Origin: Adlercreutzia sp. ZJ176
Lineage (GTDB): Bacteria; Actinomycetota; Coriobacteriia; Coriobacteriales; Eggerthellaceae
Direction of reading: 5' to 3'
Length of the DNA: 64,000 nt
Assembly: GCF_011038975.1 (NCBI RefSeq)
Contig: NZ_JAAKEC010000006.1
Span: 1 to 64,000, forward strand
Positions 8,459 to 34,543 of this stretch are shown here, one piece after another; the stretch's first letter is position 1; each line of letters starts with the position of its first letter. The notes below the pieces were generated by a model. It saw only the letters and a program-made list of their open reading frames with translations, was not told the origin of the DNA and searched no databases. A program made the position numbers and the translations under genes.

Positions 8459-9786
8459 CCGCCCGGGCGCGCCGGCGCCTGGACGTGTTCGTCGCGCAAG
8501 CCCATGCCGGCGAGCTGCGCATGGCAGAAGATGGGGCTCTCACCTTCCAATACGATCAGTCGTACGCGGGACCCGACCTGTCCGTCCGCATGCCGTTCTC
8601 CTCTGGCGAATATGCGGGCAAATCGGTGTACGCCTGGTTTGACAACCTGCTGCCCGACGATCGGCGGGTGCGCCAGGGCATGGCCGCCGAGGCCGGAACG
8701 AGCACGGGGGTGTTCCCCCTTCTCGCCAACTACGGCGCCGATCTGCCGGGCGCCGTGCAGGTGGTGGCGTCTGACGATGTCGGCTCCCTGCTCAACCGGG
8801 GCCAGGGGTACGTGCGGCTCTCGAGAACCGAGATCGCCGCGCGCCTTCGAAGGATCATGGAGGACGAGGACGCCCAGCGGGCGCGCACCTGGGCGCGCAG
8901 CGACGAGCACTGGTCCCTCGGCGGCATGCAGACCAAGATAGCCTTGCGGGAGTTTGACGGGCAGTGGTACGAGTGCCTGGGGTCAAGCGCGTCGAACGTC
9001 ATCGTGAAGCCGGGCGCCTGGGGGCTTGAGGGGCAAGCGTTCGTGGAGTGCCTCACCATGGAGCTCGCGAAGCGCTGCGGCTTGCCGACGGCGTCGGTGC
9101 GCGTCGAGCCGTTCGACGAGATCAGCGCCATCGTCGTGCAGCGCTACGACCGCTTCACCGCGCCGACGTCGGGCCTGGTGACGCGCATACACCAGGAAGA
9201 CCTCTGCCAGGCGACCGGGACGGTCTCGGCCAAGAAGTACGCCGCGGACGGCGGGCCTTCCGCTCCCGAGGTCATGGGGCTGCTTCGCCGCGCCGAGGGA
9301 GGCAGCGCGAGCCGCTTCGTCGACGCGCTCCTGTTCAACTGCCTCACCGCGTCGACCGACGCCCACGCGAAGAACTACTCGGTGCTCCATCCCAGGAGGA
9401 GCGAGTACCTGCTCGCCCCCCTGTATGACCTGGCGAGCGCCGCGCCGTACATGGGGAAGGGGAAGACGTACCGGCTCGCCATGGCGATCGGCGGCGAGAA
9501 CCGCGTCGGCTGGCTGCGGAAGTCATCTCTCGAGAGGTTCGCGCAGGCGAACGGCTTGGATTCGGGCCAGCTCGCAGACCGCGCCGACGAGCTGGCCGAG
9601 TTGATCAAGGACAACCTGGAGCCCGCCGCCGATGAGCTTGCCCGACAACCCGGCTCTGACGCCCTCGCAAGCTTGCTCATCTGTCGCCTGCGTGCCCTTT
9701 GCGATGCGACGCAGCGCAACATCCGCGTCGACGGCATCCACTTCAAGCCCGTCGACATCGCCCGTTTCGGGATCATGTCTTGCTGA
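8455..9786 (+). CDS. hipA: HipA-like serine/threonine kinase toxin
   Basis: A 443-residue HipA-type kinase, full length for the family. Visible motifs are the nucleotide-binding HWSLGGMQTKIAL (about 152-164), NVIVKPG, the catalytic loop STDAHAKN (Asp302, Asn307) and the metal-binding YDLAS (Asp324). Escherichia coli HipA phosphorylates glutamyl-tRNA synthetase and causes dormancy; the target here is unknown. It overlaps hipB by four bases. All key kinase residues are present, so the toxin should be active. A defence role is possible given the adjacent AbiL-like pair, but that is only inference. Confidence 0.9.
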   Translation: MTARARRRLDVFVAQAHAGELRMAEDGALTFQYDQSYAGPDLSVRMPFSSGEYAGKSVYAWFDNLLPDDRRVRQGMAAEAGTSTGVFPLLANYGADLPGAVQVVASDDVGSLLNRGQGYVRLSRTEIAARLRRIMEDEDAQRARTWARSDEHWSLGGMQTKIALREFDGQWYECLGSSASNVIVKPGAWGLEGQAFVECLTMELAKRCGLPTASVRVEPFDEISAIVVQRYDRFTAPTSGLVTRIHQEDLCQATGTVSAKKYAADGGPSAPEVMGLLRRAEGGSASRFVDALLFNCLTASTDAHAKNYSVLHPRRSEYLLAPLYDLASAAPYMGKGKTYRLAMAIGGENRVGWLRKSSLERFAQANGLDSGQLADRADELAELIKDNLEPAADELARQPGSDALASLLICRLRALCDATQRNIRVDGIHFKPVDIARFGIMSC

Positions 9787-33094: not shown

Positions 33095-34543
33095 GTGAAC
33101 CCCCAGCGCCTGCTCGACTCGTTTCTCGCCATGACCGCCGTAGAGAGCCCCTCGTGGCACGAGGCGGCGATGGCCGACTTCTGCGCGCGCGAGCTTGAGG
33201 GCATGGGCTTTGCCGTGGCGTTCGACGACTCGGGCGAAGAGACGGGCTCGGAGGTCGGCAACCTCATAGCGCACCTGCGCGGCACCGTGCCGGGGCACAT
33301 CGCGTTCTCGGCCCACATGGACACGGTGGTGCCGTGCGCGGGCATCCGCCTGGTGATCGAGAGGCGCCCGGCGGCGGCGTGCGGCTACGAGGACGCCGAA
33401 GGGGAGGTCGAGGTCATCTGCTCGACGGGGGAGACGATCCTCTCGGCTGATGACAAGGCCGGCATCGCGGCCATCTTCGAAGGCGTGCGCGCCACGCTCG
33501 AGGCGGGTGCGCCCCGCCCCGACCTCACGGTGGTGCTCACCACCTGCGAGGAGCAGAGCCTGCTCGGCGCCTCCGCGCTCGCCCCCGACGTCTTCGCCCG
33601 CGCCGCCGTCCTGCCAGACGAACGAACGAATGTTTCACGTGAAACATTTTCGAATGGTGCGGCGCGCGCTGAGGCGGGCGAAGACGAGCGTGCCGTTGCG
33701 TGTGCTGGGGCAGATGGCGAAGCGGGCGGAAGTGCCGAAGAGCGCGCGAGCGCGGGTGCTGCGAGTGCAGGTGTCGAAGAGCACGCAAGCGTGAATGTCG
33801 CGAGCGCAGGTGCTGAAGAGCGCTCAAGCGCGAATGCTGCGAGCGCAAGCGCACGAACGAATGTTTCACGTGAAACACTTGCGGAACCCGATCTCGTGCC
33901 GTGCTTCGTGCTTGACGCCGACGGGCATCCGGGCTCCATCATCGTCGGCGCGCCCTTCCACTACACGCTGCGCGCTCGCTTCACGGGCCGCGCGGCGCAC
34001 GCGGGCGTCGAGCCCGAGGCGGGCGCAAGCGCCATCCAGATGGCCGCGCATGCCGTGGCGGGCATGCCGCTCGGGCGCATCGACGAGCACACCACCGCCA
34101 ACGTCGGTGTCGTCAGCGGCGGCGCGGCGGTGAACATCGTCCCTGAGATCTGCTGTGTCGAGGGGGAGTGCCGTTCGCTCTTCGAGGATCGCGTGAACGC
34201 CCAGCGAGACGCCATGACGCGCGCGTGCGAGGAGGCGGCGGCCCGCTTCGGCGGCACGGTTGAGGTGGACTGGACGGTCGATTACCCGGGCATCCTCTTC
34301 AGCGAGGACGCGCCCATCGTGTCCAGCCTGGTCAGGGCTGCGAAGGCGGCGGGCCTCACGCCGCGGCTCGCCCTGTCGGGCGGCGGCGCTGACGCCAACG
34401 TGCTCTCGACCAAGGGGGCCTGCGCCATCACGCTCGGCATCGGCATGACGAACTTCCACACCTGCGACGAGCACATCACCGTGCGCGATCTCGAAGGGTC
34501 CGCCCGCTACGTGGAGGCCGTCATCGCCGAGTACGCCTGCTGA
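33095..34543 (+). CDS. M20/PepT-like metallopeptidase with an inserted segment carrying two parS sites
   Basis: A 482-residue metallopeptidase. It has the zinc ligands FSAHMDTVVP and SADDKAG, catalytic TTCEEQ, the dimerisation domain (RFTGRAAHAGVEPEAGASAI), and the C-terminal LSGGGADANVLSTKG and HTCDEHITV. Between VLPDE and LVPCFVLD, about residues 178-270, lies an extra Ala/Glu/Ser-rich segment with repeats (ASAGVEEHASVNV, ASAGAEERSSANA) bordered by two copies of RTNVSRET. Those copies are encoded by perfect parS palindromes. The rest matches tripeptidase-like family members, so the insert probably loops out. GTG at 33095 follows GGGGAG. Confidence 0.88.
   Translation: MNPQRLLDSFLAMTAVESPSWHEAAMADFCARELEGMGFAVAFDDSGEETGSEVGNLIAHLRGTVPGHIAFSAHMDTVVPCAGIRLVIERRPAAACGYEDAEGEVEVICSTGETILSADDKAGIAAIFEGVRATLEAGAPRPDLTVVLTTCEEQSLLGASALAPDVFARAAVLPDERTNVSRETFSNGAARAEAGEDERAVACAGADGEAGGSAEERASAGAASAGVEEHASVNVASAGAEERSSANAASASARTNVSRETLAEPDLVPCFVLDADGHPGSIIVGAPFHYTLRARFTGRAAHAGVEPEAGASAIQMAAHAVAGMPLGRIDEHTTANVGVVSGGAAVNIVPEICCVEGECRSLFEDRVNAQRDAMTRACEEAAARFGGTVEVDWTVDYPGILFSEDAPIVSSLVRAAKAAGLTPRLALSGGGADANVLSTKGACAITLGIGMTNFHTCDEHITVRDLEGSARYVEAVIAEYAC
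33631..33646. promoter_or_regulatory. parS: parS site 1 (ParB binding)
   Basis: TGTTTCACGTGAAACA matches the universal bacterial parS consensus at all 16 positions. ParB/Spo0J loads here to organise chromosome segregation. The site is inside the M20 peptidase gene and is read as NVSRET. The 25 bases ACGAACGAA plus the palindrome are shared with site 2. Confidence 0.9.
33862..33877. promoter_or_regulatory. parS: parS site 2 (ParB binding)
   Basis: A second perfect TGTTTCACGTGAAACA, 231 bp after the first, same reading frame and same upstream flank (ACGAACGAA). Two sites this close in one gene point to a segregation locus, and parS clusters usually lie near the replication origin. No origin or parAB genes are visible in the window. 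Confidence 0.9.

Follow-up and report, generated by a model that had tools for sequence, protein, structure and literature searches.

Why should a peptidase gene carry, twice and without a mismatch, the 16-bp palindrome that ParB recognises in other species? The window analysed here, a 64,000-nucleotide stretch given as contig C46 of a 2.72 Mb genome in 49 contigs, contains the motif TGTTTCACGTGAAACA in two exact copies spaced by 231 bp, and a search of all 64 kb at up to three mismatches returned no match beyond this pair; at the same threshold, 100 shuffled versions of the window gave 0.12 matches on average and never two. An initial annotation of this DNA had placed the copies at the borders of an Ala/Glu-rich segment and had each read as NVSRET behind the same upstream bases. 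The positions are exact, RTNVSRET stands in frame at both copies, and the shared bases prove to be part of a larger repeat of 34 bp whose two units are 91% alike (Table 1).

The host protein matches the M20 and M20_dimer profiles, and TIGR01883 (PepT-like) matches it on both sides of the insert with a score slightly under the cut-off (259.8 versus 274.25 bits); with both domains present and the conserved metal ligands kept, it belongs to the M20 peptidases. Its catalytic parts had been described as intact, and indeed H74/D76, D119/D120, E152/E153, D274/D276 and H455 show no variation among 11 orthologues. AlphaFold2 predicts the peptidase fold with confidence, and residues 171–264, which hold both sites, are predicted to be disordered (pLDDT ~27).

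Table 1. Features in and around the paired 16-mers (coordinates of the window).
Feature	Position	Strand	Remarks
PepT-like M20 family peptidase gene, host of both sites	33095..34543	+	482 aa; profile matches
Candidate parS copy 1, TGTTTCACGTGAAACA palindrome, read NVSRET	33631..33646		position common to sister species
Candidate parS copy 2, identical, read NVSRET	33862..33877		right flank is that beside the sister's single parS
34-bp repeat unit around copy 1, CGAACGAA-parS-TTTTCG	33619..33652		repeat comparison
34-bp repeat unit around copy 2, 91% identical	33850..33883		repeat comparison
Ala/Glu-rich coding segment separating both sites	33647..33861	+	in no orthologue compared
Tandem array, 39-bp unit x 3.0, inside the insert	33732..33847	+	repeat search
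Codons of residues 171–264, predicted disordered loop	33605..33886	+	pLDDT <50

On sequence grounds both motifs are probably chromosomal parS sites and candidate loading sites for ParB. The initial annotation, which had called them parS, proposed a search of the whole genome for the 16-mer and named a genome without parB as the contrary case. The search returned 47 exact copies, two of them the peptidase pair, and only 4 more at one or two mismatches. Just over half (24/47) lie between 39 and 90 kb of contig C4, within 51 kb around parB, and the remaining 23 are scattered over 12 contigs. C4 carries gyrA, recF, yidC, jag, rsmG, parA and parB, the usual origin neighbourhood, with parA-parB beside rsmG and parB at C4:70389. 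The encoded ParB matches TIGR00180 above the cut-off and, at the four positions that part ParB from Noc (R-X-X-G in the parS-type, Q-K-K-R in the NBS-type; Jalal et al., 2020, PMC7383237), reads R-A-D-G, with the equivalents of R173 and G201 in place. A consensus matched at all 16 bp, parA-parB beside a dense cluster and parS-type residues in ParB thus all speak for the identification. The genome (G000) also has four further ParB_N genes with weaker matches (G000:C11:207993, C12:1085, C14:13461 and C9:39301), possibly on integrated or conjugative elements.

How the peptidase came by two sites can be read from its orthologues within the Eggerthellaceae. In the sister species compared, Adlercreutzia sp. 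ZJ473 (G002), the closest named relative, the gene has a single perfect parS, bordered directly by the copy-1 flank on the left and by the copy-2 flank on the right. Orthologues in most genera are without the entire loop; in that of G001, a member of the same genus, the loop is about as long but holds no parS, and none was found in the orthologues of G005, G006 and G007 either. The insert had been thought to be tolerated for the sake of the sites, but it does not make room for a site, because the G002 gene has its perfect parS without any such Ala/Glu segment, and in two other genera Ala/Gly-rich inserts occur in the loop without parS. The suggestion that a site was duplicated with coding sequence has fared better, as the sister's single parS joins the copy-1 left and copy-2 right flanks; one site is common to the sister gene, and the Ala/Glu insert is in no orthologue compared. 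Most simply, a recent duplication and expansion in a disordered loop would have produced both the second copy and the insert. The loop would have lengthened and, as a variable surface loop, have received one parS whose codons added a harmless, disordered NVSRET; later, in the species of ZJ176, a second copy of the site would have arisen along with the expansion of an Ala/Glu repeat, which came to lie between the two. It is possible that G002 instead lost the insert through deletion by recombination between two parS copies, but that history costs one step more than duplication. The loop also appears to be a recurrent place of low-complexity expansion, with Ala/Gly-rich inserts in the orthologues of G007 and G006 (L045 and L044).

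parS sites inside genes are as such ordinary, and the accepted view is of a few parS close to the origin, which they mark for the cell. The novelty here is not the intragenic pair but a genome-wide expansion to ~50–130 scattered, conserved copies. In a first survey, other members of the family had between 0 and 126 exact copies per genome, with high counts of 108, 126, 104, 109, 75, 48, 39 and 26 and low-copy members mostly at 1–6 and up to 14. Among 248 Actinomycetota genomes, each at least 95% complete, the family maximum was 130 copies (G275) and the highest number outside the Eggerthellaceae was 21, in G278, a genus with a large genome, probably Streptomyces. The Streptomyces-type clusters resemble the present case in belonging to Actinomycetota with several parS round the origin and differ in that maximum of 21 and in their placement, as the copies listed there fall within ~200 kb and show no spread along the arms. 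With respect to chromosomal ParABS (Spo0J/ParB) systems in general, the 16-bp consensus, the parA-parB genes at the origin, the cluster round parB and the parS-type ParB are the same, but the counts, 47 in this genome and as many as 130 in relatives, contrast with the one to 20 parS per genome usually reported (PMC10197239, which cites Livny 2007). The positions differ as well. At distances of up to 25 kb from parB the closed genome of G005 (108 copies) has 40 parS per 100 kb, a density that drops to 1–2 per 100 kb on the arms, and at least 51 of its 108 copies lie outside the 20% ori domain in which the vast majority of parS normally sit (PMC7022226), some of them ~1.7 Mb from parB and opposite the origin. 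The peptidase pair may belong among such distant sites: since the assembly is split into 49 contigs, its distance from oriC was taken by synteny, which puts the orthologues beyond the ori domain, at 0.83 Mb (G005) and 0.97 Mb (G007) from parB. Pseudomonas aeruginosa also has hundreds of extra chromosomal ParB sites (PMC7022226), but these are common 7-bp half sites and not full, exact and conserved 16-bp palindromes. In a tree of ParB the high-copy genera do not form one clade, and about three changes of state are needed, with gain and loss not separable. No account of such a family-level expansion was found in the open-access literature, and searches for NVSRET/MFHVKH, or for parS with Eggerthella, which covered few subscription papers, returned nothing relevant.

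Comparison with the sister species indicates how well the sites are kept. Within the origin cluster, 21 of the 24 sites align to an intact 16-mer in G002, versus 3.2 expected at the 82–95% identity of their flanks, and the remaining three are located in stretches that G002 does not have. Among the scattered sites, 13 of 23 map onto intact G002 sites at at least 12 loci (both members of the window pair map onto one), in a comparison biased by the fetching of only those G002 loci that hold a site. The parS in folC, just ahead of a conserved strand, occupies the same codons in three high-copy genera, represented by this genome, G005 and G006, the last of which has two parS in the gene; it is present in none of 18 other genera and is also missing from G001, of the same genus. 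Most scattered sites are not common to different genera.

Twelve parS of this genome lie in nine recognisable genes, all of them between or outside the matched domains: the places are linkers, inserts or termini, often at the edges of low-complexity segments. The peptidase, a MocR/PdxR regulator and recF have two each, and a transglutaminase, a CPBP protease, the linker of a porCD fusion, the C-terminus of porA, an ABC ATPase and folC have one. The transglutaminase site comes with an insert of ~258 bp that is cleanly absent from G002. In recF (L021:2336-3793, minus strand) the two parS are found in a C-terminal extension that also has a repeated GLPARQAD motif.

Might the protein, and not the DNA, be what is conserved? 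NVSRET would then be a functional peptide motif from which the DNA match merely follows, and most intragenic copies do use the NVSRET frame. We regard this as next to impossible. The codons AAT, GTT, TCA, CGT, GAA and ACA are all rare, each making up 2–7% of its codon family in the genes of the window, so that given this codon usage the probability of NVSRET being written in these six is 1.1e-8; the peptidase loop is predicted to be disordered; some genes use the FHVKH frame (the second MocR site and CPBP); and many copies are intergenic. In the fetched loci, 91 of 92 VSRET readings come from the exact palindrome. That the motif is held at the level of DNA and not of protein is thus supported, and sites selected as DNA would shape proteins, the linkers of unrelated enzymes carrying NVSRET because of the DNA. 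It is only marginally less far-fetched to take the palindromes for transcription terminators or operators and not for centromere-like sites. Half of the origin-cluster sites (12/24) do lie in longer inverted repeats, some followed by T-rich DNA, and some intergenic copies could additionally serve as terminators, but most scattered sites show little or no such extension of the palindrome, the part that does not vary coincides exactly with the ParB site, and at least 12 copies, the peptidase pair among them, are within open reading frames, which a terminator would cut short.

Two other explanations address the scattered copies in particular. They might be a REP-like palindromic repeat, spread by mobility or recombination, whose parS core is coincidental and whose copies on the chromosome arms have no function in segregation. 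Such a reading, which we think unlikely, draws on the palindromic arms of the sites: scattered sites in this genome read CGAA-parS-TTCG and origin sites AA-parS-TT, the G at arm position 4 having a frequency of 0.67 here and 0.73 in G005, where the scattered sites have T-N-N-G arms, and being missing from the origin cluster. The ACGAACGAA flank already seen in the initial annotation is part of this scattered-site arm, and several copies have longer common flanks such as TCCATGATGCT. The copies are also paired, G005 having eight intact pairs at a spacing of 34–36 bp (loci L200–L240; for example, L231:2152 and 2186) and six more sites with a decayed partner one or two bases off the consensus at the same spacing; the same 34-bp arrangement is seen here at L035:4996/5030. 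REP/BIME elements are likewise short dispersed palindromes that are sometimes paired, but the core in the present case is parS, it is exact while the flanks vary (47 exact copies versus 4 near-misses), and its near-perfect preservation against flanks of 82–95% identity argues for selection on the core. Moreover, profile searches found no gene for Y1_Tnp (RAYT), the family that mobilises REPs, in G000, G001 or G002, and one and two such genes in G005 and G006; mobilisation by RAYT is not supported, as this genus is without the gene. A mobile unit with long shared flanks was also considered and set aside, only two such copies being present in this genome, at the ends of contigs C8 and C21. The parS copies L023:4988 and L029:5092, near contig ends, have a longer common flanking repeat, perhaps a duplicated element that breaks the assembly. 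The arms and pairs suggest that the scattered copies spread as a short palindromic unit whose arms then decay while the core is maintained; probably this was an extended palindrome, often paired, with selection on ParB loading keeping the 16-bp core. Spread and later selection are compatible, and the REP-like alternative is partly folded into this explanation. The other possibility, which we consider very improbable, is nucleoid occlusion of the Noc kind, in which a ParB paralogue on the scattered sites blocks division over the nucleoid. Noc is a ParB-family protein that in B. subtilis also binds sites scattered over the chromosome (PMC4331003), and the ParB described here matches the Noc model at 243 bits, under the cut-off of 315. 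Yet Noc is a separate paralogue, and none was found here: only one ParB_N gene is present in each of G005 (108 copies), G001 (75) and G018 (26), which therefore have no Noc-like paralogue for their scattered sites, and in G000 the additional ParB_N genes are weak matches. The specificity residues are RXXG and not QKKR, the sites are parS and not NBS, which differs at half-site positions 1 and 6, and in G005 they also occur ~1.7 Mb from parB, opposite the origin. ParB itself may nevertheless act in nucleoid occlusion.

Selection on parS for ParB loading thus remains the explanation that we prefer, and its consequences can be sketched by analogy. What is established in other species is that ParB, once it has recognised the parS 16-mer, forms a closed CTP clamp, spreads and brings in ParA and SMC. 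By the same route, a ParB dimer at each 16-mer would close as a CTP clamp, slide to the flanking DNA and recruit ParA/SMC, and ParB would presumably load all round the chromosome, arm sites included. Work on P. aeruginosa shows that the position of parS does not matter for ParB binding, yet only parS inside a zone of ~650 kb around oriC serves segregation (PMC5098823); arm sites may therefore do something else, or nothing. It is tempting to speculate that several Eggerthellaceae have a distributed centromere, in which ParB loading at ~50 to 130 conserved parS, the terminus included, would make of it a chromosome-wide organiser of the nucleoid and a loader of SMC, and, as tentatively, that housekeeping genes (folC, recF, por, the peptidase and MocR) hold sites for it in disordered linkers. 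More than 100 exact, conserved copies that extend out to the opposite pole break the rule of origin proximity, while sister genera keep 1–6, and the high- and low-copy sister genera offer a natural experiment on how parS number and position bear on segregation, SMC loading and chromosome folding.

Two minor observations concern the origin cluster on C4. The longer inverted repeats around its sites (L020, L021 and L022) are perfect and add 5–14 bp on each side, and their predicted hairpins, for example at L021:17647 and L021:15214, reach a dG of -36 kcal/mol and are terminator-like, with parS at the tip. At L022 ~8500–9080 (C4:84618), an intergenic segment of ~520 bp with a parS is absent from the sister species.
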